DNA from: Planctomycetota bacterium
GTDB taxonomy: Bacteria > Planctomycetota > Phycisphaerae > Sedimentisphaerales > Anaerobacaceae
NCBI GenBank assembly: GCA_014384025.1
Contig: JACNGQ010000107.1
Location: 1-41,334, forward strand
Length of the DNA stretch: 41,334 bases
Direction: 5' to 3'
Numbering within the stretch: the first letter of the stretch is position 1; each line of letters begins with the position of its first letter. The translations under genes and the position numbers were made by a program. Below are positions 7,640 through 22,301 of this stretch, piece after piece. The notes beneath the pieces are model-generated. The model worked only from the letters and a program-made list of their open reading frames with translations, made no database searches and had not been told where the DNA came from.

Positions 7640-9247
7640 TTAGTCCAGTTTTCTGTAATTAATACCTTTGGCTTCGAGATGTTTGAGATGGTGGCGGAGG
7701 CGGGTGACAAAATTTCCATAGCTCTTCAATTCATTTTGAGACCATCCGATTTCGGCCAGGGCAATTGCACGGGGATAGGCCATATACTCAAGATGCTTTT
7801 GGGTGGAAATATATTCTCCCCATAGCTGGCCCTGGACTCCTAATATATGTACGGCTTTTTCCGGTGTAATCGCTTTCGGAATCGGATCGTATTGATAGAC
7901 CTTTTCCAATGGAATAAGCCCACCGATGGCCAGAGGTTCATTCACTGGAGCACTTTGGTAGTAATCAAAATAAGTGTGTGAAGTCGGCGCCATAACAACA
8001 TCGTGTCCGGCGTTGGCTGCGGTGATTCCGCCGTGAATACCACGCCAACTCATCACCGTAGCTCCGGGTGCGAGGCCGCCTTGCAGGATTTCGTCCCAAC
8101 CGAGCAGTCGCCTGTTGTTCTGAATCAGAAAGGCGTCCATCTGTTTGATAAACCAACTGTGCAACTCATGGGCGTCCTTGCAGCCCAGTTGTTTCATCTG
8201 TGTCTGCATCTCAGGGTCGTTTTCCCACAGTTTCAAATTTGCCTCGTCGCCGCCGATATGAATGAATCGGCTGGCAAACAGGTCAATAACTTCTGCAAGT
8301 ACATCCTGCATAAATTCCACCGTCTCGGGACGCGGAGCCACCAGGCCGCCCAACGCTGCCCATCGCTTATCGAGTGACATACCCTCTACACGGGCGGGAT
8401 TGATACCTATATACGGATAGGCATTTATCGCTGCACCGGCGTGATATGGCATCTCGATCTCGGGCACTATCGTGATATGGCGTTTCTCGGCGTATCGGAC
8501 GAGTTCGCGAATCTCCTCCTGCGTGTAGAAGCCGCCGTTGCCACCACTGCGATCTCGATTCGAGGCGAGTTTCGTCAGATTCGGATGCTTCTTGATTTCG
8601 ATTCGCCAGCCAATGTTGTCGGTCAGGTGCATTTGCAGCCGATTGAACTTGTGCATTGCCATGCCGTTGAGAAACTTCTTCACGTTATTAACCGTGATGA
8701 AGTGCCGTGCCGGGTCGATGAGTAAGCCCCGCCATTGAAAGCGCGGATAATCAGTAATCTTAAGGCATGGCACTTTCCAATTAATGTCTTTGACTTGGGT
8801 TTTGCTGAAGATTGATGCCGGAAGAAGTTGCAGCAGGGACTGAATTCCATAGAAAAGTCCCGCCGGCTGTTTGGCGCGAATTAAGATTTGCTCGGCAGAG
8901 ACATCGAGTATGTATCCTTCAAGCCCCGGCTGCGATATTCGCGGATCAATTACCAACTTAACAACCCGGGCTTTCGGTCGTGCTTTGGAGGCAAGTTTCA
9001 ATCTATAGCCCATTGCAGGCGCCAGAGCATCAATAAGTTTCGACGCCTCAGCTTGTGCATCTTTTTCTGCAATGATTCGTATTGATGGTTTGAAGACGAA
9101 GAAACCATCATGGTATTCCACAGAGACGGGTATGGGAATGATGTTATTGGTTTCGTTGTGCGAACCGGTTACTGCGGCAGGTGTAAAAAATATTAAGGCC
9201 AATGTAACTAAGGTCATGGTAATTATAGTATGTCTATCGGTTTTCAT
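7640..9247 (-). CDS. Secreted beta-N-acetylhexosaminidase (GH20)
   Basis: A 535-residue protein with an N-terminal signal peptide (about 1-29), a GH20b-like domain 2 (about 35-160) and the GH20 barrel starting at YPRFQWRGLLIDPARHFI (167-184). The catalytic pair is Asp334-Glu335 in HIGGDEANLKLW; HLTDNIGWRIEIKKHPNLT (207-225) and VPEIEMPYHAGAA (261-273) are also typical. It cleaves terminal beta-linked GlcNAc or GalNAc from glycans by substrate-assisted catalysis. AGGAG lies nine bases before the ATG. It is the first gene of the minus-strand operon and is divergent from the alcohol dehydrogenase gene. A 178-base gap separates it from the phosphodiesterase gene, so that gene may also have its own promoter. 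Confidence 0.93.
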   Translation of the reverse strand: MKTDRHTIITMTLVTLALIFFTPAAVTGSHNETNNIIPIPVSVEYHDGFFVFKPSIRIIAEKDAQAEASKLIDALAPAMGYRLKLASKARPKARVVKLVIDPRISQPGLEGYILDVSAEQILIRAKQPAGLFYGIQSLLQLLPASIFSKTQVKDINWKVPCLKITDYPRFQWRGLLIDPARHFITVNNVKKFLNGMAMHKFNRLQMHLTDNIGWRIEIKKHPNLTKLASNRDRSGGNGGFYTQEEIRELVRYAEKRHITIVPEIEMPYHAGAAINAYPYIGINPARVEGMSLDKRWAALGGLVAPRPETVEFMQDVLAEVIDLFASRFIHIGGDEANLKLWENDPEMQTQMKQLGCKDAHELHSWFIKQMDAFLIQNNRRLLGWDEILQGGLAPGATVMSWRGIHGGITAANAGHDVVMAPTSHTYFDYYQSAPVNEPLAIGGLIPLEKVYQYDPIPKAITPEKAVHILGVQGQLWGEYISTQKHLEYMAYPRAIALAEIGWSQNELKSYGNFVTRLRHHLKHLEAKGINYRKLD

Positions 9248-9418: not shown

Positions 9419-10576
9419 TTGCTTATGGCTGATATATCACAATTCAGGTTCCCTACTGACATACGCTTTGGTGTTGGCGGGCGCTGCGAGCTGGCTGAAT
9501 TTGCCCGGAAGTACAAGGTGAGCCGGCCTTTGTTAGTGACAGATTCGGGGTTGCTTAAGACCGAGGCGTTTGAACTGCTTGAAGAGCAGATGAATATTAT
9601 CTGGCCCGGGGCGTTTGCGCGGTTTACGGATGTTCATCCTAATCCGACAGACAGGGACGTCGAGGGTGCGCTTAGTGCTTATTTAGAAGGCAAATGTGAC
9701 GGTGTGGTGGGATTGGGCGGCGGCAGTGCGCTCGATGCTGCGAGGGCTTTACGGCTTAAGGTCGCTTTTCCTGATGCAGAGTTAATGGAAATGCCTTTCA
9801 ATGAGCTGGGGCAGTTGGTTCCTATGTGCGCGATTCCGACTACGGCAGGCACCGGCAGTGAAGTGGGGCGAAGCAGTGTTATCACGATACAAAAGATGGG
9901 TAGAAAAGCGATTTTTGGTGCACAGCCGTTGATGGCCGAGATGGCGATACTGGACCCTGAACTGACTGTTGGATTGCCCTCAAATTTGACCGCTTCGACC
10001 GGTATGGACGCGATGACCCACGCTATCGAGGCGCTGGTATGCACCGTGTTTCATCCGATGTGCGACGCTATTGCTCTTGAGGCAATCCGTATGGTATGGC
10101 TATACTTGCCGAGGGCATATTCCAATGGAACTGATATCGAAGCTCGCGGAATGATGCAGGTGGCCGCTGCGATGGGTGCGGTGGCTTTTCAAAAAGACCT
10201 CGGGGCGGCACACTCTTTGTCACATCCATTGTCAAGTGAGTTTGGTATTCAGCATGGTCTTGCAAACGCCATTTGTCTTACGCCGGTTATGAAATATAAC
10301 AAAGAGGTATCGGCGGCCCAGTATGCCAGGGTTGCACAGTGTTTTGGAATCAATACTTTCGATATGTCGGAAAGTGAGGCCGCGGAGAAAGCTATCGAGG
10401 CAATTCAAGATCTTAATAAACGTATCGGAATACCTAAATCGCTGAGTGAAGTGGGTATAAAAGAAGACCAGCTTGAAATGCTGGCGAAAAAGGCCTTTGA
10501 GGACCCATGTCATCCGTCGAATCCCCGGCCATGTACCGAGCAGGATTTGCTTATGCTTTACAAAGAAGCTTTTTGA
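9419..10576 (+). CDS. Iron-containing alcohol dehydrogenase (group III)
   Basis: The 385-residue protein has the family dinucleotide loop GGGSALDAARAL (100-111), the PTTAGTGSEVGRSSV block (140-154) and the iron ligands Asp197, His201, His265 and His279 (MDAMTHAIEAL, LGAAHSLSHPL, IQHGLANAI). It interconverts an alcohol and an aldehyde with NAD(P)H. The TTG start has AAGGAG six bases upstream; an ATG two codons later is an alternative. It is 45 bases upstream of an aldehyde ferredoxin oxidoreductase and co-oriented, so both probably act on the same aldehyde. Some members act on phosphonoacetaldehyde or lactaldehyde, so the exact substrate is open. Confidence 0.9.
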   Translation: MLMADISQFRFPTDIRFGVGGRCELAEFARKYKVSRPLLVTDSGLLKTEAFELLEEQMNIIWPGAFARFTDVHPNPTDRDVEGALSAYLEGKCDGVVGLGGGSALDAARALRLKVAFPDAELMEMPFNELGQLVPMCAIPTTAGTGSEVGRSSVITIQKMGRKAIFGAQPLMAEMAILDPELTVGLPSNLTASTGMDAMTHAIEALVCTVFHPMCDAIALEAIRMVWLYLPRAYSNGTDIEARGMMQVAAAMGAVAFQKDLGAAHSLSHPLSSEFGIQHGLANAICLTPVMKYNKEVSAAQYARVAQCFGINTFDMSESEAAEKAIEAIQDLNKRIGIPKSLSEVGIKEDQLEMLAKKAFEDPCHPSNPRPCTEQDLLMLYKEAF

Positions 10577-10621
10577 GCAGTATTTAATTGCAGGCTTTCT
10601 TACTTGCAGTGGAGATATGTT

Positions 10622-12529
10622 ATGTCTAATGGTTTTACAGGAATCATTCTTCGAGTTAATTTGAGCACAGGTGCAATCGAAAAGCAAAAGTTCGACGAAG
10701 ATTTCTATCGTATGTATATGGGCGGGGGGGCTTTGGGAACGTACTTTCTTCTTAAGGAAACTGCTTCCGACATAGACGCTTTAGCCGAACAGAACATATT
10801 GACCATTGCGCCGGGAGTTACTACGGGAGCGCCGGTCAGTGGTGTTAGCCGTTGCTGTGTAACTGCTTTGTCACCGGTTACCGGCGCTATTGGTGACAGC
10901 CAAACGGGAGGAAATATCGGGCCGATGATTAAACGGGCCGGTTACGATGCTATTGTTATTTCAGGCAAATCGAAAACACCGGTTTATTTATTAGTTGAGG
11001 GGCAAGACGTACAAATAAAGCAGGCAAGTCACCTACAAGGTCAAAATGTTCTTGATGTGTATGATGTTCTTACGAAGGAACTGGGCGGCGGTAAACTCAG
11101 CATTTTGCAGTGCGGACCGGCGGGTGAGAAACTCGTACGATTTTCATGCCTTGTGGCTGATTTGAACGATGTTGCGGGCAGGACGGGTATGGGGGCCGTT
11201 TTTGGAAGTAAGAATTTGCGTGCGATTACTGTTAGAGGTGAAAATAAAATCAACTTTTCTGATAATGAGGGGCTGAGGAAATTAGGAAGGCTGGCTTCAG
11301 AACGTCTGCCCGATTCGGGATTTCCAACAACACTGAGTAAGTATGGAACGCCGGGGGTGGTGGGATTTCAGGCCGAAGCCGGAAACCTGGCTACGCACAA
11401 CTACTCTCGCAGCTATCACCAGGACTACAAAAATCTTGATGGGGCCACTTTTGAGCCCAGTATAGGAACAGGTTTTACGACATGTTTTGGCTGTGTTGTT
11501 GGATGCCGCAGGAAAGTGAAAGCAGAAAAACCTTACAAGGTAACCGACAGGCTTGGCGGGCCGGAGTTTGAGACGCTTGGGCTTCTGGGCTCCAATCTGG
11601 ATATTACCGACCCGGTGGCTGTGGCCAAGGCGAATGAGCTATGTAACAATTATGGAATAGACACTATAACTATGGGGGGGCTGGCTGCATATCTTTTCGA
11701 ATCTGCGGAGAAAGGTTTGATTACGCCGGAGGCAACGGAGGGTAAGTCGCTTGGCTTTGGTGACCCGGAAGCACTTATTTGGCTGATTGAGCGCGTAGCT
11801 GGACGAAAGGGCATAGGGGATGTATTAGCTGAGGGATTCGAGGCCGCAATCGAGCACTTCGGGCAACAAACCGCTGCTTATGCGATAAATGTGAAAAACA
11901 ACGGCTTAGCTGTACATATGGCACAGGTCAAACCAAGCCAGGCGCTGATGTATGCGGTTTGTCCAATCGGACCCGACCATATGTCGTCGGAGCATGACTG
12001 GCTTTTGGCAAGTGATTCCGAGGCACGCAAAGGACTGGGTATTTTCAAATCTGCACAACCAGCTTCTGCGGAGCAATCCGGAATTCGTGAAGCCGCTTGT
12101 TCGTATGAGATGGACAAAGTGCGCATGACTGTTTACACACAATATTTCTATAGTATGCTCGATACATTATGTTTGTGTATGTTTTGCTGGGGGCCGGGAA
12201 ACCTATTTAATTACCGCGAGCTTGAAGATTTACTCAGCTATACCACCGGCTGGGAATGTACGCTATGGGAGTTGATGAAGGTCGGCGAACGACGGGTAAA
12301 TATGATGCGGCAGCTCAATGCCAAAAGAGGTTTTACTCGTGAGCATGACCGTCTTCCGGAAAGGCTCGGTAAGGCTTTGCCTGATGGTCCGGCAAAAGGT
12401 AAACACGTTGACAGCGAGGCTTTTGAGAAGATGCTGGATAAGTATTATGGTTTGATGGGCTGGGACAGTAAGACGGGTAATCCAACCGATGCCAAATTGC
12501 TCGAACTCGGCCTGGAGTGGACTCTTTAA
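10622..12529 (+). CDS. aor: Aldehyde ferredoxin oxidoreductase (tungsten-pterin)
   Basis: A 635-residue protein, about the usual AOR length. The N-terminal domain (LRVNLSTGAIEK...GGGALGTYFLL) and the [4Fe-4S] ligands Cys288, Cys291 and Cys295 (CFGCVVGC) plus a distal Cys near 517-522 (LCLCMFC) match the tungsten AOR family. It oxidises aldehydes to carboxylic acids and reduces ferredoxin in the cytoplasm. The ATG at 10622 was chosen because GGAG lies seven bases upstream. It follows the alcohol dehydrogenase gene. Reduced ferredoxin from this enzyme is a natural electron donor for the ferredoxin-linked hydrogenase encoded at 27-40 kb (inference). Other AOR-family members (FOR, GAPOR, WOR4/5) differ in substrate, which the sequence alone does not settle. 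Confidence 0.93.
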   Translation: MSNGFTGIILRVNLSTGAIEKQKFDEDFYRMYMGGGALGTYFLLKETASDIDALAEQNILTIAPGVTTGAPVSGVSRCCVTALSPVTGAIGDSQTGGNIGPMIKRAGYDAIVISGKSKTPVYLLVEGQDVQIKQASHLQGQNVLDVYDVLTKELGGGKLSILQCGPAGEKLVRFSCLVADLNDVAGRTGMGAVFGSKNLRAITVRGENKINFSDNEGLRKLGRLASERLPDSGFPTTLSKYGTPGVVGFQAEAGNLATHNYSRSYHQDYKNLDGATFEPSIGTGFTTCFGCVVGCRRKVKAEKPYKVTDRLGGPEFETLGLLGSNLDITDPVAVAKANELCNNYGIDTITMGGLAAYLFESAEKGLITPEATEGKSLGFGDPEALIWLIERVAGRKGIGDVLAEGFEAAIEHFGQQTAAYAINVKNNGLAVHMAQVKPSQALMYAVCPIGPDHMSSEHDWLLASDSEARKGLGIFKSAQPASAEQSGIREAACSYEMDKVRMTVYTQYFYSMLDTLCLCMFCWGPGNLFNYRELEDLLSYTTGWECTLWELMKVGERRVNMMRQLNAKRGFTREHDRLPERLGKALPDGPAKGKHVDSEAFEKMLDKYYGLMGWDSKTGNPTDAKLLELGLEWTL

Positions 12530-12551: not shown

Positions 12552-13412
12552 CTAACGTCCGGCCATGGGGAGGACGAGCTTATTTAGCCAATTGACGAAT
12601 TCGCATTGCCGGATTTCGTCGGAAAGCACATCGTCGTCGATAGCTAATTGCCAGCGCAGGTCTTTTCTGTCCGGTTCTTTTGCGAGTGCCTCCATAAGCT
12701 CGACAAGATTCACCATGTCCTGGTGGGTTCGGAAGAAACCGGCTTTGATGAGTTTTTTCTCCCGAGCAACAATTAATCTGGCCATTTCGTGCAGATCGTA
12801 TTCGGGATGGTACTGTGTAGCCCAGAAAGTTCCGTTCTTATGCGTTACTGCTAAAGCCTGAACATTGGCGAAGCTGTTACCAGCCAGCAAAACTCCGCCG
12901 GGAGGGAGCCTGGTAACCATATCATCATGGCTTACGAAGCCTTCAAATATACGGGGCTTGCCTTCAAACATTGGGTGATTGTATGCTTCAGGTGTTTGGT
13001 GAATTTTACGACCCATTCCCATCTCACGTCCTTTGGGATTAGGCTCGACCCGGCCACCGGCGGCGAAGGCGGCCATTTGTATCCCCCAGCAGCTTCCGAA
13101 GCTTGGCACTCCCACCTCGTAAGCGTTTTTGGCCAATTCGACTTGGGTAGCGACGCTGGAATTGTCTGTGTCAAAAATAGTGAGGTTGCAGCCCGTCCAG
13201 ATTATGCCGGCATAATTGAGGAGGTCTTTTGCCGATGGCATATCCACACCGGGGTCACTTGGTAGTAAAATATCATATACAGCTTCCTTCAGGTGCTGCA
13301 GAAGCATATCTGTGTAAAGCTCCCAGGCGAGTTTCATTCCGGCTGTCTGGAGGTCGTCACGGCTTTGCTTAGGATAGCCGTCAATAATAAGAAATCGTAA
13401 GGGAGTTGTCAT
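12552..13412 (-). CDS. Class I glutamine amidotransferase-like protein
   Basis: A 286-residue stand-alone GATase domain. The nucleophile elbow is GSCWGIQMAAFAAGG (Cys108) and the His-Glu pair is in TQYHPEYD (His202, Glu204), so the catalytic triad is complete. GMGRKIH...GFVSHDDMVTRLP resembles GMP-synthase-like class I GATases. About 70 residues follow the domain and have no recognised function. AGGAG is six bases before the ATG. It is convergent with the aldehyde oxidoreductase gene (22-base gap) and sits 26 bases downstream of the HAD gene, with which it is probably co-transcribed. A gamma-glutamyl hydrolase or an amide-transfer role are both possible. Confidence 0.8.
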   Translation of the reverse strand: MTTPLRFLIIDGYPKQSRDDLQTAGMKLAWELYTDMLLQHLKEAVYDILLPSDPGVDMPSAKDLLNYAGIIWTGCNLTIFDTDNSSVATQVELAKNAYEVGVPSFGSCWGIQMAAFAAGGRVEPNPKGREMGMGRKIHQTPEAYNHPMFEGKPRIFEGFVSHDDMVTRLPPGGVLLAGNSFANVQALAVTHKNGTFWATQYHPEYDLHEMARLIVAREKKLIKAGFFRTHQDMVNLVELMEALAKEPDRKDLRWQLAIDDDVLSDEIRQCEFVNWLNKLVLPMAGR

Positions 13413-13438
13413 CCGTCGCTCCTGTAGTTATGGGAACC

Positions 13439-14203
13439 TTATTGTTTGTTTAGCTTTTCCAAAATGGCCGGTAAATCCTGAAAGTTACTGCAGATGGCAT
13501 CGGCCTTAGTGTTTTCACTGCAGCGGTCTTTGACCACCGTACATAAAACGGCACGGGCGCCCACGGCATGTGGACCATCGATATCTTTTAATTCCCGGTC
13601 TCCGATATGTACAATCTCGCCGGGCTTGACACCAAGGCCCTCGGCTGCCGCTTCGAAGACGGCTGGGTTGGGTTTGGCGCAGCCGATTTCATCAGAGAAA
13701 ATAAAAGAACTGAAATATTTCAAAATATCGTAATCGGCTAATAACTGTCGAAGAGCACGACCCGGGCTGAAAATGGCGTCTGATATTACCCCCATCTTAT
13801 ATTTGCCCTGTAGAGAGCTTAGGGTTTTGGCTACTTCCGGCGCCAAATCAGGCCGCACTGCTAATTCCATCTCTTCGTGCAGCCGAACCAGCTCATCGAA
13901 CTCAGGCTCCGGCAGATTACGTTTCAGGCCTTTGAGCAGGACCCAGAGCCGCTGGCGAACCGTCCATGTGACATTTTGAGCGTACCATACCTGGCGAAAT
14001 GCAGCATCTGTAGTGTCGTAAGCCAGGTCAATCAGGTCTCTTGCAATTGGTTCATGGTGTTCTAAGAATTGCTGAACCAGGTTTCGTCGTTCAACAGGTT
14101 TGGGTGCAAGTCCCTGCTTTTTTCGTTTTGGCTCATCCGAATCATCGATGAAAACGGTGTCCCACAAATCAAATGTAATTGCTCGTATTCTTGCTTTATC
14201 CAT
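13439..14203 (-). CDS. HAD-superfamily hydrolase
   Basis: The 254-residue product begins with the HAD motif I in TFDLWDTVF (nucleophile Asp12, with Trp in the second acidic position, as in many FDxWxT members). A helical cap follows (about 40-125), then motif II in MGVISDA, motif III Lys in GCAKPNPAVFEAA, and motif IV in IHIGDRELKDIDGPHAVGARAVL. It probably hydrolyses a phosphate ester or a related bond in a small molecule. The ATG at 14203 was preferred over the TTG before it. The absence of the usual second Asp in motif I suggests it may not be a standard phosphatase. It shares a transcription unit with the amidotransferase gene; the substrate is unknown. Confidence 0.8.
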   Translation of the reverse strand: MDKARIRAITFDLWDTVFIDDSDEPKRKKQGLAPKPVERRNLVQQFLEHHEPIARDLIDLAYDTTDAAFRQVWYAQNVTWTVRQRLWVLLKGLKRNLPEPEFDELVRLHEEMELAVRPDLAPEVAKTLSSLQGKYKMGVISDAIFSPGRALRQLLADYDILKYFSSFIFSDEIGCAKPNPAVFEAAAEGLGVKPGEIVHIGDRELKDIDGPHAVGARAVLCTVVKDRCSENTKADAICSNFQDLPAILEKLNKQ

Positions 14204-14326
14204 CAAAACTTATCTTTGCTCCGAGATGCAGGCTCGGCATTGACAATATTTCAGAAGCGGTGCTCTTGCTGCAAATGCTACAATCTCCAAAGTCTTATGA
14301 TGTAGAATAGAATTGTACCAAAGATT

Positions 14327-15109
14327 CTACTCCTCCACATCGCCTGTGTACCATCTGGTAGGAACGTCTTCACCGGTGGTTCTAGCAATCTCGGATACAT
14401 GGCCATCAAGCCAGTTGGTCATTGAAAAGTCGCGGTGACGAAAACACTCCTGGACCGTGTCATGCCACTGATCTCCAGACCAATTGCTGTCAACAAAGCC
14501 GCTGCCACCCTCGTTGCTCCGACGCCATTGTGTTAAATTGATACGTCCTCCGGGACCGATGCAAAACATGTCCGAAGTAATACTATCCAATTTCTGCTCT
14601 ATGTGGTCCTGAAAAGCAATTATCTCGCTTGGGCGTTTGAATTCAGGGCTGGTGTCAATATTTTTGTTTGTGATGTAACCATTGAGGCCATACGAGCAAT
14701 ATGCGAAGTAATGCTGAACCAGTCTTCCCCATGCTGGCCCATTTTCAGGCCAGTCATCGACCCGTTCGACACCGGGACAGGAATAGATTTTTTTGTTTTG
14801 GGCGTATGGAAAATACGCAATTCCCCAATAGGACCAAGATTCATTCGGGCCCAATTGTTTAACCACGGCTGGATTTGTGTATGCATTATCCCAAAGGCCG
14901 TTGTTAGGTGAGTTATGCGTTTTTCCTTCATGGTCGTCGGCGTACATTCGCAGGGCGAGCCCTACCCCTCCAACATGTACTTTGCAGACTGTTTTTCTTG
15001 CCTGTGCTTTCGCGGCCCTTAGAGCAGGCATTAAAATCGCCAACAGAACTGCGATAACAGCAATCACGACCAGTAGTTCAATTAAGGTGAAGGCTTTTTT
15101 GTTTTTCAT
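14327..15109 (-). CDS. Pseudopilin-like protein, H-X9-DG type
   Basis: A 260-residue protein with a type II secretion/type IV pilin-like N-terminus: a short basic leader then FTLIELLVVIAVIAVLLAILMPAL, with cleavage expected before Phe7 and the conserved Glu five residues into the mature protein. The C-terminal part contains HRDFSMTNWLDG, an exact H-X9-DG motif, the signature of the DUF1559-like prepilin families that are expanded in planctomycetes. It should be anchored in the inner membrane or extracytoplasmic. AGGAGG lies eight bases before the ATG. The neighbours do not encode a secretion machine, which is usual for these scattered copies. Confidence 0.9.
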   Translation of the reverse strand: MKNKKAFTLIELLVVIAVIAVLLAILMPALRAAKAQARKTVCKVHVGGVGLALRMYADDHEGKTHNSPNNGLWDNAYTNPAVVKQLGPNESWSYWGIAYFPYAQNKKIYSCPGVERVDDWPENGPAWGRLVQHYFAYCSYGLNGYITNKNIDTSPEFKRPSEIIAFQDHIEQKLDSITSDMFCIGPGGRINLTQWRRSNEGGSGFVDSNWSGDQWHDTVQECFRHRDFSMTNWLDGHVSEIARTTGEDVPTRWYTGDVEE

Positions 15110-15303: not shown

Positions 15304-16788
15304 TTAACTACTTTCGGGCCAATATCTTTCAGTAATAATTTTATCTTCTGTAAAGAAGTTGATAATCGCTTTTCCCTGGGCTTTTATATCTGCAAAGAGC
15401 GATGCCTTCATCCCGCCGAAAGGCAGATAGGCTACCGGGGCCGGGATGCCGACATTTATACCGATCATTCCGCATTCTGTTTCGAGCTTGAACTTGCGTG
15501 CGTAATAACCATTCTGAGTGTAAATCGATGCTCCGTTGCCATATTCGAGGTTGTTAATGATTTGTATTGCTTCATCGAGAGAGCCGGCCTTCAGAACCAC
15601 TACGACCGGGCCGAAAATCTCAGTACTGTGAATCTCCATACCCGGCTTGACATCGGTAAATACTGTCGGGCCTATGAAGTATCCGTTTTCACAGCCGGGC
15701 ACCACAATACCGCGTCCGTCAAGAGCCAAGGTTGCGCCTTCTCTGATACCGGTTTTTATCATATCAAGAATAAACTGTTTTGACCTGGCCGAGATCACGG
15801 GGCCCATAACCATAGATTCATCAGCCACCTCAGGGTCGAGAGGATTGGCAACCAGAACGTTTTTTGAAGCGTCAACAAATTTATCACAGATTGTTTTGTA
15901 CATATCATTTCCAACTGCAACTATCGCCGAAGCCGCCATGCAGCGTTGTCCGGCACAGCCATAACAGGAAGTTATCATGTTGCGGAGCATATCATCGACC
16001 TTGGCATCGGGCATTGCCACAAGGTGATTTTTAGCTGAGCCCATTGCCTGACAGCGCTTTTGGTTTTGGGCACACTTTTCAGAGACGATTTTACACGTTC
16101 GGGTTGAGCCGACCAGAGAGACACCTTTTACAAGGGGATTTTCTATAATTGTCTGGGCAACGACTTTATCTCCATTGACCAGATTGAAAACTCCTTTAGG
16201 TAAATCAGTCTGGCTAATGTATTCTGTAATCAACTGCATCGTAAGAGGCACTTGTTCCGAAGCCTTGACTATATAAGTGTTGCCCGTTGCAATGGCGTAA
16301 GGCAGGAACCAGAAGGGAACCATAGCCGGGAAATTAAACGGTGCTATCATTGCAAAAACACCTATCGGCAGGCGAATAACTTCGCCGTCTATATCATACG
16401 ATGCGCCTATTAGCTTATCTCCCTGCTGCAGTACAGGCATATTACAAGCGACTTCTATGTTCTCGAAGATTCGTTTCATCTCAGCCCGTGCATCCGGCAG
16501 TGACTTTCCCATCTCTTCGACAAGTGTCCGGGCGATTTTCTCTTCGCTTTCGCGAAGTAAACCGTCCAGTTGGAATAAAGGCTGAACCCGACGGCCAACA
16601 GGGGTTTGACTCCAGGCCTTAAACGCTTCGGCAGCGGCGTTGACAGCACGATTTGTTTCGTCGGGGGTTGATAAAGGTACTTTGCCAATAATCTGTCCCG
16701 TACATGGATTCTCGATATCTAAATAGCCGTCATTTTCAGGTGTAATCCACTTGCCATTAATATAATTTTTGACAGTGTTTATACTCAT
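15304..16788 (-). CDS. mmsA: CoA-acylating aldehyde dehydrogenase, MmsA type
   Basis: A 494-residue ALDH-superfamily enzyme. IAPFNFPAM (149-156) holds the conserved Asn, and the catalytic Cys is Cys283 in CAGQRCMA. The segment QAMGSAKNHLVAMPDA carries the MmsA-type MGxxKNH in place of the ELGGK of hydrolytic ALDHs, which removes the general-base Glu and fits CoA-dependent acylation. The end, PFGGMKAS...FFTEDKIITERYW, is also MmsA-like. Known members convert methylmalonate or malonate semialdehyde to acyl-CoA. As the last gene of a phosphonate operon, right after PhnX which releases acetaldehyde, it may instead make acetyl-CoA from acetaldehyde, or act on phosphonoacetaldehyde (inference). Start: ATG after a GGGGTAG sequence. 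Confidence 0.88.
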   Translation of the reverse strand: MSINTVKNYINGKWITPENDGYLDIENPCTGQIIGKVPLSTPDETNRAVNAAAEAFKAWSQTPVGRRVQPLFQLDGLLRESEEKIARTLVEEMGKSLPDARAEMKRIFENIEVACNMPVLQQGDKLIGASYDIDGEVIRLPIGVFAMIAPFNFPAMVPFWFLPYAIATGNTYIVKASEQVPLTMQLITEYISQTDLPKGVFNLVNGDKVVAQTIIENPLVKGVSLVGSTRTCKIVSEKCAQNQKRCQAMGSAKNHLVAMPDAKVDDMLRNMITSCYGCAGQRCMAASAIVAVGNDMYKTICDKFVDASKNVLVANPLDPEVADESMVMGPVISARSKQFILDMIKTGIREGATLALDGRGIVVPGCENGYFIGPTVFTDVKPGMEIHSTEIFGPVVVVLKAGSLDEAIQIINNLEYGNGASIYTQNGYYARKFKLETECGMIGINVGIPAPVAYLPFGGMKASLFADIKAQGKAIINFFTEDKIITERYWPESS

Positions 16789-16840
16789 TCTCTACCCCAA
16801 TATATTAATCTGCTCTAAAACTTTTGAAGAATCATAAAAT

Positions 16841-17674
16841 TTAGGGTCTGTCGCCCATTTTTAATCTTTGTTCGATTTCGCTGATAACGGCGGGCACATC
16901 TGAAATGGATTCGACTACATAATGAGCACCGGTTTTAGCCAGACCATCTGCGGCCTTGTCCACTTTACGTTTCACTTCCTCGGCGGGTAAAGCGGCCAGC
17001 TCCTGAAGATTGAGCCCCACCTCGTTGCCGGTTTTGGCCAGGCCGATAGTCCATGTTCCCGCATTCAGTCCTTCTTCAATGCCCGGTTTGGTATCGTCAA
17101 CTTTGACGACTGCTTGTGGAGGAAAAATGCGCGCTTGCTGCATGTTGCTTATGACCATCCATGGCTCAGGCCGGCCTGCAGGGACGTCGCTGGCACAGGA
17201 ATTGACATCAGGGCTATAGCCTTGTTTTTTTGCCTCACGCAGGTTTATCTCCATGGCTTCAGTGAAATAACCGCTGCTTGAACCTATTTTTATCCCGCGG
17301 CTTTTCAGCTTATTAACAGCTTCGACTGTTCCCGGAATCAGTTCAGTATAATCTGCAATGCAGGCAACCTGCAGCGGAACGAAATCTTTTTCGAACATAT
17401 CCTGCACATCCGCTTCGGTACACTTTTTATTATGCACCTGCTGCCAAAGCATGGCAACCTCATCCTGTTTTGATATTGCTCTTATGTGGTCGAGCTTTTT
17501 AAGACCCATAGGACGACGGGCCTGCTCCATCGTAATCTCCACGCCACGGCGTTTGAAAACCTCAATGAAGACAACCGCAGGGGCATAACAGCCATAATCC
17601 AAAGTTGTTCCCGCCCAATCGAGAATAACCATTTTGACTGGACCTTTATAGGTTCTGTTATATACAAAATCCAT
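16841..17674 (-). CDS. phnX: Phosphonoacetaldehyde hydrolase (phosphonatase)
   Basis: A 277-residue HAD enzyme with the phosphonatase signatures: the nucleophile Asp19 in ILDWAGTTLDYGCYAPAVVF and the Schiff-base Lys60 in RRPMGLKKLDHIRAI, then SSSGYF, CASDVPAGRPEPWM and VKVDDTKPGIEEG. Length and motif order fit PhnX. It cleaves the C-P bond of phosphonoacetaldehyde to acetaldehyde and phosphate in the cytoplasm, second step of 2-aminoethylphosphonate degradation. AAGGAG lies six bases before the ATG. It is co-directional with the PbfA-like gene (54 bases upstream) and the aldehyde dehydrogenase gene (52 bases downstream). Confidence 0.96.
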   Translation of the reverse strand: MDFVYNRTYKGPVKMVILDWAGTTLDYGCYAPAVVFIEVFKRRGVEITMEQARRPMGLKKLDHIRAISKQDEVAMLWQQVHNKKCTEADVQDMFEKDFVPLQVACIADYTELIPGTVEAVNKLKSRGIKIGSSSGYFTEAMEINLREAKKQGYSPDVNSCASDVPAGRPEPWMVISNMQQARIFPPQAVVKVDDTKPGIEEGLNAGTWTIGLAKTGNEVGLNLQELAALPAEEVKRKVDKAADGLAKTGAHYVVESISDVPAVISEIEQRLKMGDRP

Positions 17675-17728
17675 ATCATACTCCTTATCATATTCTTAGT
17701 TACATTTGTTGTTAGTCTATAAGAATAC

Positions 17729-19093
17729 CTATCCTTCAACTTCCTGAAGACATTCATCCAGGATGTTCAAGGCTTTGTCCATTTGTTCTTTAGTAATGGT
17801 TAATGGGGGTGTCAGTGTTATGATACTGCCCATTGTTACCTTAAAGTTAAGCCCTTTGCTTAGTGCGCTGTACATTACCTGCTCAGCTTCTTCAGTTGCC
17901 GGTTCCTTTGTCTTGCGGTCTTTAACCAGCTCCATCCCCATCATCAGCCCGAGACCTCTGACTGCCCCGATTATTTTGTGCTGCTGCATCATTTTGCGCA
18001 TTCGATCCATAGCATAAAGACCCATTTTTTTCGCATTAGCCGTCAGATTGTCTTCTTCGATACATTCGATTGTTGCGAGGGCCGCTGCACAGGCGACGGG
18101 ATTCTTTTCATGGGTATAATGGCCAAGGGCACGATCGGGCATAATGTCTAAATCCTCGCGGGCTATAAGAGCGGCCAATGGAAAAATTCCGCCGCCCAAA
18201 CCTTTGCCGATGACAAGCATATCCGGAACAACGTCGAAGTGCCGGCAGGTAAACATTTTCCCTGTACGGCCGAGACAATGGGGTATTTCATCGAGTATCA
18301 GCAATGCGCCATATTTATCACATGCCGCACGAATTTTTTCCCAGTAACCAATTGGAGGGACAATCGACGTACTTCGTACAGTTTCAGCTATCACGGCCGC
18401 GACATCGCCTTCTTTACTCAAAACATACTCGACATAGTCAGCACATTTGAGATTGCAGTTATCCCCGCATCCCCAAAGGCACCGGTAGCAGTCCGGCGGG
18501 GGGACATGCTCGGTGCCGGGCAGGAGCGGGCCTGCATCTTTGCGAAAGATAGCTTCTCCACTGATAGAGATGGCATCGAGCGAGGCACCATGGAAAGAAT
18601 CCCACATTGAAATCGTCTTAAATTTACCGGTTGCCATCCTTGCCAGTTTCAAAGCCATTCCAATAGCTCCTGTTCCGGCCGGTGCGAAGAGAACCTTGTT
18701 TAATTTTCCGGGAGCCAGTTGGGCAAGCTTTTCGGCAAGTTTTATAGCAGGAATATTGGTATAGCGGCGTGTGCAGAAAGCAAGCTGGTCCATTTGATTC
18801 CTGACAGCTTCAATTACCCGGCGGTTGGCAAATCCGACCTGATGTACGTTGTTGCCGTGGAAGTCCATAATGTCACGGCCCTGAAGATCTTCAAGGTTAA
18901 TGCCTTCACAGCCAGACAGGACGTTCAAACATGGAGTTGAGAGTGACTGATGCAAAAAATACTTAGCATCCAAATCAAGCCAGCGCTGAGTCTCGGCGTT
19001 AATATGCTTTTTAGCCCAGGCCCTGCGACGCGGGGAGATATTCAGGTCACCTTCCGAGAGCATGTTGTCGAGATTTTCTTTTTTAAATTGCAT
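17729..19093 (-). CDS. pbfA: Class III PLP enzyme, probable (R)-1-hydroxy-2-aminoethylphosphonate ammonia-lyase (PbfA-like)
   Basis: A 454-residue fold-type I PLP protein of the class III aminotransferase family. Visible features are APAGTGAIGMALKLAR (138-152, phosphate loop), SFHGASLDA (166-173), the acidic pair in LLILDEIPHCLGRTGK (264-279) and PLP Lys297 in VIGKGLGGG. A Cys-rich segment CYRCLWGCGDNCNLKC (202-217) occupies a loop that is also Cys-rich in relatives. The family includes ordinary transaminases, but PhnW already supplies AEP transamination here. A class III homologue placed between phnW and phnX is the arrangement described for PbfA, which converts (R)-1-hydroxy-2-aminoethylphosphonate to phosphonoacetaldehyde and ammonia. 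The name rests on context and family, not on a diagnostic residue. The first ATG was preferred over a TTG seven codons upstream. Confidence 0.65.
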   Translation of the reverse strand: MQFKKENLDNMLSEGDLNISPRRRAWAKKHINAETQRWLDLDAKYFLHQSLSTPCLNVLSGCEGINLEDLQGRDIMDFHGNNVHQVGFANRRVIEAVRNQMDQLAFCTRRYTNIPAIKLAEKLAQLAPGKLNKVLFAPAGTGAIGMALKLARMATGKFKTISMWDSFHGASLDAISISGEAIFRKDAGPLLPGTEHVPPPDCYRCLWGCGDNCNLKCADYVEYVLSKEGDVAAVIAETVRSTSIVPPIGYWEKIRAACDKYGALLILDEIPHCLGRTGKMFTCRHFDVVPDMLVIGKGLGGGIFPLAALIAREDLDIMPDRALGHYTHEKNPVACAAALATIECIEEDNLTANAKKMGLYAMDRMRKMMQQHKIIGAVRGLGLMMGMELVKDRKTKEPATEEAEQVMYSALSKGLNFKVTMGSIITLTPPLTITKEQMDKALNILDECLQEVEG

Positions 19094-19133
19094 CTTAGTT
19101 TTTAAATGACACAATAGTATTTATGTTAATGCT

Positions 19134-20255
19134 TTACTTAAGTTTAACACCCATCTCGGTGATTGTCTGGTTGATTGCAACCAGCAGGGCTTTGATATCG
19201 GCTTCGGAGATTCGGCCGATATTACCAATCCGGAAGCAATTGGCATCACTGACCTTGCCGGGGTAAATTACATAATCCTTTTGATTCAGACTTTCATAAA
19301 ACTCTTCAAAGGAAAAACTGGGATCATCCGGATACAGAAACGAGGTGATAATATATCCCTGGTTTTCAGGTCTGAGGTATTCTTTAAATCCCATCATGCG
19401 CATACCTTCGATGAGAGTTTCGTAATTTTTACGATAACGCCCGGCCCTACCATTCACACCGCCTTCGGTCTGAATCTCCTCAAGGGCCTGACGAAAAGCC
19501 GCAAGAGTATGAGTAGGTGGGGTAAAACGAAATTGACCGTTCTTTTCAAGGCCCTGATACTGTTCCAGCAGGTTGAAGCTTACACTGCGAGCGTAGCCGG
19601 CAGTTTCTCTGAGCGAGCTGAGTTTGCATAAAATAAATGAAAAACCGGGCACGCCCTCAATGCACTTGTTGGCGGAGGAGACAAGATAATCAATGTTGAA
19701 TTCGTGTAGATTAACAGGCACTGCGCCGAAACTGCTCATAGCATCTACAAAATACCTTGCGTCGGATTTTGCAACAAGAGCCCCGATTTCTTTGATAGGA
19801 TTGATAATTCCTGTGGTCGTTTCGCAATGCACAACTGAGACGCTGGTGATTTTGTTGTCGGACTTTAGCGTATCTTCTATTTCACTAAGGTCCGGTATTG
19901 TGTTTTCGGGATATTCGAGTGTGATGGTATCAATTTTAAGCACTGATGCGATTTTAGCGAGCCGTTTTCCATACGCTCCGTTGATAATTATCAGCAGCTT
20001 ACCATCGGGCGGGACTGTAGAAGAAACGACTGCTTCCAGGCCAAAAGTACCGCTGCCCTGCATAAGAACGGCAGTGTATTCATCCGGCTTAGCTCCACCC
20101 AGTTCAACCAGTTTTTGCCTGATTTCCTGAACAATTGCAATAAATTCAGAATCCCGAGAGCCCAGGTCTCGCAGCATAGCCTGTTTAACGGTCTGACTGG
20201 TAGTCAGAGGTCCGGGAGTAAAGAGGATTTTATCTTTCATTTTTTTTGTTTTCAT
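19134..20255 (-). CDS. phnW: 2-aminoethylphosphonate:pyruvate aminotransferase
   Basis: A 373-residue fold-type I PLP enzyme. It begins ILFTPGPLTTSQTVKQAML, a segment typical of the PhnW/AGT family; GSGTFGLEA (68-76) is the PLP phosphate loop; VHCETTTGIINPI (142-154) and VDAMSSFGAVPVNL (170-183) follow; PLP Lys197 lies in SSANKCIEGVPGFSF. It transfers the amino group of 2-aminoethylphosphonate to pyruvate, giving phosphonoacetaldehyde and alanine. Its ATG overlaps the transporter's TGA by one base (TGATG), so the start at 20255 was preferred to the TTG one codon earlier. The order transporter-phnW-pbfA-like-phnX supports the function strongly. Confidence 0.95.
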   Translation of the reverse strand: MKTKKMKDKILFTPGPLTTSQTVKQAMLRDLGSRDSEFIAIVQEIRQKLVELGGAKPDEYTAVLMQGSGTFGLEAVVSSTVPPDGKLLIIINGAYGKRLAKIASVLKIDTITLEYPENTIPDLSEIEDTLKSDNKITSVSVVHCETTTGIINPIKEIGALVAKSDARYFVDAMSSFGAVPVNLHEFNIDYLVSSANKCIEGVPGFSFILCKLSSLRETAGYARSVSFNLLEQYQGLEKNGQFRFTPPTHTLAAFRQALEEIQTEGGVNGRAGRYRKNYETLIEGMRMMGFKEYLRPENQGYIITSFLYPDDPSFSFEEFYESLNQKDYVIYPGKVSDANCFRIGNIGRISEADIKALLVAINQTITEMGVKLK

Positions 20256-21946
20256 CAAATAGATTCCGAATTATTGTCAGAGACCTGTTTATGAGCTTCG
20301 GGGATCCAGTTCCACTTTATCGCGAGCAGGCTGCCTGCAATAAGGGCTATTGCTACAAAGAAATAGAACAAGCTGTCCCAACCGAATTTTGTTGCTATGT
20401 AAGCGACTATAAAACCCGATACCATCTGTCCGAGTGAGCCGACGCCATTAATTACGCCGGAGGCCAGTCCGGCTGCTTTTGGTGAACATGCGTCAATAGC
20501 CGCGGCGCCCGACATCAAGGCATCCGGGCCATAGGTAAAGAATCCTATCAGAGAAATTCCGATTGCGTTACCAAGGTGGCTCCATGCGGCTAATTGAGGA
20601 TGGAAAAAGCAAGTAATGGCCAGGCCCCACATACCCAGGGCTCCCACAGGCATTCGCCGAGCCTGAAAAAGTTTGTCTGAAACATAACCGGCGGCTATTA
20701 CACCGGCAAAGCCCACGGCTTCAAAAAGAATAGAAGTATAACCCGCCTCTGAAAGGCTGTAGCCGAGATGTTCGACCATATATAAAGGCAGCCAGAAAAA
20801 TATTGCGTATCGCCCCATTTTCGTGAAGAAATACATTAGACTGATAAGCCACACTATGGGGTTTTTCAGAACAACAGCAAGCAGTTCTTTTGATGACAAT
20901 TTTGAATTAATTTTGGGATTCCCGGCGGATTCGCTATCATCGGTATCGTCTTCGGCAATTTCCGGAAGGCCTGCATCTCTGGGTCTGTTACGCGTGAAAG
21001 TGATAAAACACAAAGCTATAAGCGTTAGCACAACGGCGGGAATCCAAAAGCTGCGACGCCATTTCAACTTGAATTTTTGTGGATAGGTCTCTTGCAGCAA
21101 GGTCTTGTTGAAGGAAATACACTTCTTGCCTTTTAGTTCTTTTTTGCGCTGTTCAGGTTTTTTCGCAATCAAATTCTCTATGTTAGCGGTGGTTCTATCT
21201 GATAAGTTGATGCCTTCAAAGCGTTGTTTGTCGTAAAGCCATGGACCCTGGAGTACCGTATTTAATTCTGATACCATTGCCTGAAGCAGCATTTCGGAAA
21301 CAGCTCCTGTACCATCATATGCACTGAGCAATTGTTGGCTTTCGGATGAAAATTGCTCTCCAAGATACTTCGAGAGCGAGTTTTGCTCGTCGCGCAGTTG
21401 AATTGCCAGACCAGACGGGTCTTTCAGGTCGCTCGCTCGCAGCAGTAAAGGGTGTGTTACTATAAATGTTGCAAGGCCCGTTGATACAATTGCGCCAATG
21501 ACATAACAGGTTGCCCACCAGGACAAAACCACTCCCCGTTCTTTTCGCCGAAACCAGGGAGCCATATTCTTGACGGTCCCGGACCAGCCAGTTGATTGCC
21601 CGGTCCCATTGATACACAGCAACATGCCAAACATAAATAATGCCGGGCCAAAGCCCAGAAATACATTCGCAAATATTGATAGAAACAGCCCGATTCCAAC
21701 AATCAGTCGAGGACCATACTTGTCGGATAAAAATCCGTTGTAAAACTGGCCCAGCGCATAAAACAGACTGTAGAAGAACAGGAGCTTCGCGAAAATATCT
21801 TTTGTAAATCCCATGTCTTGAGTAAGCAAAGGCATGGCAATGCTAAAATTCTTACGGCATAAATAAAAACCGCCATAGGTCAGCCACGTTATCGCAAAAA
21901 TCCGGTAACGCCAAAATCGATATTCCCTGGTAAGTGTAATTGCCAT
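20255..21946 (-). CDS. OPA-family MFS transporter (GlpT-like) with large periplasmic insert, probable phosphonate permease
   Basis: A 563-residue MFS protein of the organophosphate:phosphate antiporter family. YLCRKNFSIAMPLL (28-41) carries the substrate Arg31 equivalent to GlpT Arg45, and MGRYAIFFWLPLYM in TM7 carries the second Arg; DKYGPR follows TM2. Typical GlpT is about 450 residues. The surplus is a hydrophilic stretch at about 165-297 between TM5 and TM6, which in MFS topology faces the periplasm. As first gene of the phosphonate operon it probably imports 2-aminoethylphosphonate or a related phosphonate, perhaps in exchange for phosphate (inference); glycerol-3-phosphate is the main alternative. 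The Shine-Dalgarno sequence before the ATG is weak. Confidence 0.87.
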   Translation of the reverse strand: MAITLTREYRFWRYRIFAITWLTYGGFYLCRKNFSIAMPLLTQDMGFTKDIFAKLLFFYSLFYALGQFYNGFLSDKYGPRLIVGIGLFLSIFANVFLGFGPALFMFGMLLCINGTGQSTGWSGTVKNMAPWFRRKERGVVLSWWATCYVIGAIVSTGLATFIVTHPLLLRASDLKDPSGLAIQLRDEQNSLSKYLGEQFSSESQQLLSAYDGTGAVSEMLLQAMVSELNTVLQGPWLYDKQRFEGINLSDRTTANIENLIAKKPEQRKKELKGKKCISFNKTLLQETYPQKFKLKWRRSFWIPAVVLTLIALCFITFTRNRPRDAGLPEIAEDDTDDSESAGNPKINSKLSSKELLAVVLKNPIVWLISLMYFFTKMGRYAIFFWLPLYMVEHLGYSLSEAGYTSILFEAVGFAGVIAAGYVSDKLFQARRMPVGALGMWGLAITCFFHPQLAAWSHLGNAIGISLIGFFTYGPDALMSGAAAIDACSPKAAGLASGVINGVGSLGQMVSGFIVAYIATKFGWDSLFYFFVAIALIAGSLLAIKWNWIPEAHKQVSDNNSESI

Positions 21947-22143: not shown

Positions 22144-22187
22144 ATGGCATATCCTGTTTACAGGTAATACGAATTGTATTATGGCAT
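22144..22187. promoter_or_regulatory. Paired palindromes, possible operator
   Basis: CCTGT-tt-ACAGG (22153-22164) is followed without a gap by TAATAC-gaatt-GTATTA (22165-22181), and the pair is bracketed by direct repeats ATGGCAT at 22144-22150 and 22181-22187. Such a compact symmetric block between two divergent genes could be a regulator binding site for either unit. No regulator gene is adjacent, and palindromes of this size can occur by chance in A/T-rich DNA. Confidence 0.35.
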
Positions 22188-22301
22188 GCTCGAAAGTAAT
22201 GTCAATGAAGAATTGATAGCTGGTGCTGTTTGTTTCAATCTTTGTCTTTGAATTCGAGAAGTCACTGCTTAAAAACTCAATGTATAAAATAAGGATTATC
22301 C

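Follow-up and report, generated by a model that had tools for sequence, protein, structure and literature searches.

A probable catabolic operon for 2-aminoethylphosphonate and its hydroxylated analog, with an IolA-type dehydrogenase, in an apparently anaerobic planctomycete

Introduction

The described systems closest to the locus studied here are the phnWX-pbfA clusters, such as those of Vibrio splendidus, and the enzyme PbfA together with its presence in strict anaerobes, e.g., Sebaldella termitidis, has already been published (PMC8154272). With regard to uptake, the 2-aminoethylphosphonate (AEP) permease AepP of Pseudomonas putida, a relative of GlpT, is required for phosphate-insensitive growth, and its gene has been reported beside phnWX in several phyla, including Verrucomicrobia and Acidobacteria (PMC8316502). 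Uptake by an OPA-family carrier can thus not be regarded as novel.

In this study, we analyzed a 41,334-nucleotide stretch of planctomycete DNA (the window; contig C439:1-41334) from a draft genome of 6.7 Mb in 448 contigs, which is ∼95% complete with 4% contamination. The window contains a real operon, whose pathway is mostly known but whose host and arrangement are new. Taken as a whole and with its accessory genes, it very probably encodes the catabolism of AEP and (R)-1-hydroxy-2-aminoethylphosphonate (R-HAEP) by a planctomycete of Phycisphaerae type that is apparently anaerobic.

Results

Operon Structure and Host

A preliminary description of this DNA had reported five genes on one strand with small gaps or overlaps, and our analysis confirmed all five ORFs on the minus strand at 15304-21946 (Table 1). 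The transporter gene overlaps phnW, and the remaining intervals measure 19 bp (phnW-pbfA), 54 bp (pbfA-phnX) and 52 bp (phnX-ALDH, the aldehyde dehydrogenase gene). The order (OPA)-phnW-pbfA-phnX-ALDH was found again in two relatives (L043 and L048) and phnW-pbfA-phnX in Vibrio plasmids (L163 and L164), so the arrangement is not due to chance; synteny of the operon was conserved in L043, L047 and L048.

The nearest relatives of the window PbfA belonged to MAGs of Planctomycetota, Phycisphaerae and Sedimentisphaerales. The search of the host genome yielded no heme-copper oxidase (COX1) and no cytochrome bd, which fits an apparently anaerobic host. In a draft of 448 contigs and about 95% completeness, an oxidase or a second iolA could be missed.

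Table 1. Positions, strands and supporting evidence of the features annotated in the window.
Feature	Position	Strand	Evidence or remark
OPA-family MFS transporter, AepP-like	20255..21946	-	NCBIfam OPA models; 1PW4 GlpT alignment; recurs with pbfA
PhnW, 2-aminoethylphosphonate:pyruvate transaminase	19134..20258	-	TIGR02326; PDB 1M32
PbfA, class III PLP enzyme	17729..19114	-	NF049939; tree with Vibrio PbfA
PhnX, phosphonoacetaldehyde hydrolase	16841..17674	-	TIGR01422; 2IOF alignment
IolA/MmsA-type CoA-acylating aldehyde dehydrogenase	15304..16788	-	TIGR01722; tree and residues; sole genome MMSDH
Pseudopilin-like protein	14327..15109	-	Neighbor kept in L043, L047, L048, L202; operon role doubtful
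HAD-family protein, motif FDLWDT	13439..14206	-	Probable accessory
Single-domain class-I glutamine-amidotransferase-like protein	12552..13412	-	Cys (GSCWG) and HPE motifs; probable accessory
Aldehyde:ferredoxin oxidoreductase (AFOR)	10604..12529	+	Pfam AFOR_N and AFOR_C; convergent with operon
Iron-containing alcohol dehydrogenase (Fe-ADH)	9419..10573	+	Pfam Fe-ADH
Sigma-70-like promoter match	22178..22205	-	TTGACA-N16-CATAAT, 11/12; ~230 bp upstream of transporter gene

Core Enzymes of Aminophosphonate Breakdown

PhnW reached the equivalog cut-off of NCBIfam TIGR02326 (478 bits; cut-off 401) and matched PDB 1M32 with an E value of 6e-107. PhnX scored 329 bits against TIGR01422 (cut-off 220), and in the alignment to the Bacillus cereus enzyme (2IOF) the two share the nucleophile Asp, the Schiff-base Lys and the Arg. 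The two proteins had been called clear from the outset, and their scores above curated NCBIfam cut-offs agree with this.

The class III PLP enzyme between them had been suggested to be PbfA, with a phylogeny against known PbfA proteins proposed as a check. It scored 709.3 bits against the PbfA model NF049939 (cut-off 525), compared with 361 bits for the best model other than NF049939 and the overlapping PRK06082. A tree built from 122 class III sequences placed it in a 109-row PbfA clade (SH-aLRT 100) and, within that, in an 87-row clade (98) together with two Vibrio proteins from phnW-pbfA-phnX operons. The host's other class III enzymes included in the tree and other planctomycete omega-transaminases lay outside the PbfA clade, the host's own being far from the window protein; the grouping with ordinary omega-transaminases that the preliminary description had named as refuting its proposal was thus not observed. 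Membership of the protein in Pfam PF00202 is what an ordinary omega-transaminase would also show; against such an enzyme stand the gap between the two scores and the tree placement, on which this reading was rejected as having hardly any probability. Family score, phylogeny and the genomic association of pbfA with phnW and phnX thus supported the assignment as PbfA, predicted to act on R-HAEP. Two points weigh against the operon reading as a whole: the identity to Vibrio PbfA is only ∼50%, and many closer PbfA relatives were encoded without phnW or phnX in the flanks fetched.

Uptake and Upstream Region

The transporter stayed below all NCBIfam equivalog cut-offs, its best match being the OPA subfamily model TIGR00881 (256 bits; cut-off 408). 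In the alignment to 1PW4, it kept the arginines corresponding to GlpT R45 and R269, which we take to be the anion-binding arginines, and relative to GlpT it carries an insert of ∼125 residues between TM5 and TM6. OPA relatives with 47-91% identity were located near pbfA in Planctomycetota, Omnitrophota and Acidobacteriota. Uptake through a GlpT-like OPA protein had been proposed for this operon; membership in the OPA family held, and carriage of AEP, with phosphate-insensitive use of this substrate, is plausible by analogy with AepP, likewise an OPA/GlpT relative encoded with phnW and phnX (PMC8316502). A Pseudomonas plasmid OPA match (H19) was discarded as an AepP candidate, with no phnW among its neighbors.

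The 500 bp preceding the operon contained no Pho box, judged by a consensus that is not defined for Planctomycetota, and the whole window held three matches with up to three mismatches against 2.9 expected. The absence noted in the preliminary description therefore stands, but with matches at chance level and a motif not established in the phylum it is weak evidence for the phosphate-independent control read from it. Sigma-70-like matches in the region were also close to the shuffled mean, so the promoter match in Table 1 is weak.

Exchange at the phnX Position in Relatives

In the relative G509, the operon reads OPA-phnW-pbfA-CSa-CSb-SauS-HADb-ALDH-pilin-pilin-HAD-GATase, followed by AFOR; it spans two contigs, joined by inference, whose junction lies within CSb, where 8 bases overlap and no residues are missing. 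The four genes in the place of phnX encode two citrate-synthase-like proteins (CSa and CSb), a SauS-like CoA-acylating aldehyde dehydrogenase and a HAD protein (HADb). The same four-gene cassette followed phnW-pbfA in three further loci (L045, L046 and L049), and all or part of it occurred in Chloroflexota, Thermodesulfobacteriota, SAR324 and one gammaproteobacterium. The cassette belongs to these relatives and is absent from the window itself. Among 21 genomes searched, the PhnX cut-off was passed by five (the host, L043, L047, L048 and L056), each with phnX at the pbfA locus, and by none of the 13 genomes that carry all or part of the cassette.

CSa and CSb are both of the citrate-synthase/citryl-CoA-lyase-like kind, and the cassette dehydrogenase resembles SauS but scored under the cut-off of that family. 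In a MAFFT alignment with citrate synthase residues mapped by eye, CSa had HG and HxDxDPRA motifs that CSb lacked, and CSb kept an Asp where CSa varies; these complementary motifs suggest that the two proteins may form a heteromer. In some cassette members PhnA was added, over the cut-off in L064 and PhnA-like in the others.

We tentatively propose that the phnX position is a swap site and that the cassette could provide the relatives with a new CoA-dependent, oxygen-independent C-P cleavage, although we rate the chances of this as less than even. In such a route, phosphonoacetaldehyde would be converted to phosphonoacetyl-CoA, from which an enolate-stabilizing step on the citrate-synthase fold would release phosphate and acetyl-CoA.

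Assignment of the Aldehyde Dehydrogenase

The last of the five genes encodes a protein that exceeded the cut-off of the methylmalonate-semialdehyde dehydrogenase (MMSDH) family TIGR01722 (497 bits; cut-off 448.5) and retained the catalytic C283 together with R106 and R282. The two arginines align with R124 and R301 of Bacillus subtilis MSDH, which reportedly (in a 2011 JBC paper) bind the substrate carboxylate, and they were invariant in 36/36 sequences. The tree separated the protein, in a clade of 11 rows (support 100/100), from 25 further MmsA-like proteins found in the class and phylum, and joined it in a subclade with those of L043 and L048 (99/97). With MMSDH as the best family and no EutE, AdhE or SauS model among the top 25 NCBIfam matches, an acetylating acetaldehyde dehydrogenase of those branches was set aside; PhnY, also missing from these 25 matches, was ruled out likewise. 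PhnY proper occurred in L039, L058 and L059, alongside PhnA or PhnW.

The window protein is the sole MMSDH of the host genome, whose iol cluster comprises an iolB-like gene, iolC, a canonical iolD, iolE and an aldolase gene without iolA. The iolBCDE-aldolase order is shared with the relative L204, where the cluster ends in a sister of this dehydrogenase (IolC and IolD over their cut-offs, with an IolE-like protein), and another sister lies in a myo-inositol cluster of L205 (IolD and IolG over cut-off, with an IolE-like protein). Three further clade members stand beside an IolD-like ThDP enzyme and a split transketolase, in a cluster with an RpiB-like protein. These contexts rule out a phosphonate-specific clade; a sulfoquinovose (sulfo-transketolase) origin of the ThDP context was unsupported, the ThDP enzyme being a distant IolD/ALS-like protein. 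On the phosphonate side, just three of the loci seen have the dehydrogenase gene adjoining phnX, and it is missing from a fourth phnX locus (L047). Its place in the phosphonate operon is kept in four genomes, i.e., the host, L043, L048 and G509. A clade member was present somewhere in the genome in 5/5 PhnX genomes checked vs. 2/5 checked relatives without phnX, a contrast too small for significance.

Since the host has a single MMSDH and an iol cluster without iolA, and sister genes lie in iol clusters, the simplest and most likely reading is that the window enzyme serves as the sole malonate-semialdehyde dehydrogenase (IolA) of the genome, shared with myo-inositol breakdown. That four relatives keep the gene in the phosphonate operon suggests a further role, possibly the conversion of acetaldehyde to acetyl-CoA; malonate semialdehyde is no less likely as a substrate.

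Two stronger versions, each with an appreciable but minority chance of being correct, pull this picture to opposite sides. The gene might be nothing but an iolA relocated beside the phosphonate operon, with no part in phosphonate breakdown, and the complementary ends of the L204 and host iol clusters, together with the lack of any other MMSDH, are as expected for such a move; its retention in four relatives is not needed under chance relocation and, with the 52-bp gap to phnX, counts against it. Conversely, a dedicated acetylating acetaldehyde dehydrogenase would turn the PhnX product into acetyl-CoA and make phosphonate a source of carbon and energy. MMSDHs accept simple aldehydes, the gene directly follows phnX in three genomes whose enzymes form a supported subclade, and clade members accompany PhnX in the five genomes mentioned, a contrast that carries little weight at this size. 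The invariant carboxylate-binding arginines speak against this dedicated role, as do the lack of any other iolA candidate in this genome, which has an iol cluster, and the position of the 94% identical G509 enzyme downstream of a PhnX-free cassette. The channeling to acyl-CoA by a MmsA-type enzyme that the preliminary description had put forward was accordingly not established.

The same kept arginines would suit the anionic beta substituent of phosphonoacetaldehyde, an isostere of malonate semialdehyde, and the dehydrogenase is kept downstream of both C-P modules, whose common substrate this aldehyde would be. We nevertheless consider it improbable that the enzyme forms phosphonoacetyl-CoA in a branch beside PhnX, with which it would compete, as no user of phosphonoacetyl-CoA was seen in the window operon; a literature search on this compound returned only unrelated biosynthesis work.

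Downstream and Convergent Genes

The operon had been taken to consist of the five genes above; these are present, but that boundary was drawn too early. The downstream HAD and glutamine-amidotransferase-like (GATase-like) genes recur with phnW, phnX or pbfA in other lineages and probably belong to it, as an accessory pair of the same pathway. The GATase-like gene was rare (1/150 genomes of the class and 4/392 of the phylum), and three of the four phylum genomes had phnW or phnX nearby, namely the host, L184 (phnW) and L185 (phnW and phnX), with neither in L183. It also occurred with pbfA in L043, L047, L049 and L056 (Omnitrophota, 67%), and in L202 of G509. The HAD gene lay beside it in all regions read except one (L192). 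In the FDLWDT motif of the HAD protein, Trp stands at the position that the second Asp occupies in ordinary HAD phosphatases, and the GATase-like protein may be of the gamma-glutamyl hydrolase type.

The AFOR gene was conserved in L043, L049 and L202 and the Fe-ADH gene in L043, L049 and L056, both convergent with the operon. AFOR is a possible aldehyde sink and Fe-ADH a possible aldehyde reductase.

Discussion

The AepP-like carrier would import the aminophosphonate, probably against phosphate. Based on the family assignments, PhnW is predicted to convert AEP, and PbfA R-HAEP, to phosphonoacetaldehyde, which PhnX would cleave to acetaldehyde and phosphate without oxygen. The IolA-type dehydrogenase, AFOR and Fe-ADH, singly or in combination, may then remove the C2 aldehyde; the first of these, most likely a malonate-semialdehyde dehydrogenase, perhaps also takes acetaldehyde. 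The HAD and GATase-like pair would act as probable accessories.

Such an operon would place a complete oxygen-independent pathway for AEP and R-HAEP in uncultured, apparently anaerobic Planctomycetota, link it to a dehydrogenase of the inositol pathway and add two recurrent accessory genes to the phosphonate repertoire. The exchange between PhnX and the cassette is the most interesting lead, and the comparison of relatives opens this possible new route of C-P cleavage to direct testing.

Compared with the phnWX-pbfA clusters of Vibrio splendidus (PMC8154272), the window is alike in PhnW, PbfA and PhnX, and its gene order is that of the Vibrio plasmids; in contrast, it has an OPA carrier where theirs have an ABC system, and it adds the IolA-type dehydrogenase and the downstream HAD-GATase pair. 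Its transporter and AepP (PMC8316502), likened here by published description rather than by the AepP sequence, are both GlpT-related OPA proteins encoded with phnWX, and the window protein differs in the extra loop of ∼125 residues, as measured against GlpT. Relative to IolA/MMSDH (TIGR01722; Bacillus subtilis, PDB 1T90), the dehydrogenase keeps the catalytic Cys and both Arg and exceeds the family cut-off, but it belongs to a separate planctomycete subclade with ∼40-44% identity to other MmsA proteins of the class, and its gene sits in a phosphonate operon. The phosphonoacetaldehyde dehydrogenase PhnY (TIGR03250) is likewise a member of the ALDH superfamily encoded in aminophosphonate operons, whereas the window enzyme falls outside the PhnY family.

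Gene neighbourhoods of pbfA

In pbfA loci of Planctomycetota, the place of phnX was taken by a cassette encoding two citrate-synthase-like proteins (CSa and CSb), a SauS-like CoA-acylating aldehyde dehydrogenase (ALDH) and a HAD protein (HADb), and no PhnX scored above the cut-off (TIGR01422) in 13 genomes with the whole or partial cassette. We consider this cassette a candidate for a new route of C-P cleavage. MtmB-like methyltransferase homologues adjoined pbfA at five loci, and no in-frame TAG was present in their ORFs that were read; these homologues are perhaps corrinoid demethylases for N-methyl-aminophosphonates in anaerobes.

In Desulfobacterota and relatives, PbfA-like paralogues were paired and adjacent, mostly divergent, with the second forming a separate 19-row clade at 46-53% identity. 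Within one Planctomycetota family (L035-L038, L042, L097), PbfA occupied a conserved neighbourhood, and the regions read around it contained no phnW, phnX, phnA or phnY. In Planctomycetota and Omnitrophota, a HAD and class-I GATase-like pair repeatedly lay close either to phnW/phnX/pbfA or to the gene for the OPA transporter.

Features of the window and of other loci (L-numbers)
Feature	Position	Setting
CSa-CSb-SauS-like ALDH-HADb, or most of it	L045:9454-13609; L046:5671-9826; L049:9145-13347; L044:9443-10461 with L202:3-3124; L081, L085, L104, L107, L111	pbfA loci
MtmB-like (PF05369) homologues	L045:6400-7770 and 7671-9188; L089:3465-8172; L096:1234-2604; L071:264-1634; L098:4485-5843	adjoining pbfA
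Second PbfA-like gene	L074, L075, L076, L080, L081, L082, L090, L094, L098, L104, L115, L117, L119, L122	
HAD + class-I GATase-like pair	window 12552-14206; outside it L043, L047, L049, L056, L184, L185, L191, L202	
OPA transporter insert, about 125 residues	window 20255-21946, residues about 165-290	TM5/TM6 interval
iolB-like, iolC, iolD, iolE, aldolase	L210:5456-11391 (G000:C105)	myo-inositol cluster, host genome
IolD-like ThDP enzyme, split transketolase, IolA-type ALDH, RpiB/LacAB-like isomerase	L155:4541-10421; L156; L157	

Transporter insert and inositol clusters

The OPA transporter insert was shared by Phycisphaerae homologues and absent from those of Omnitrophota and Acidobacteriota. 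The myo-inositol cluster of the host genome, which adjoins a sugar ABC transporter, lacks iolA. The ThDP enzyme-transketolase-ALDH-isomerase cluster represents a putative pathway for a sugar or cyclitol.
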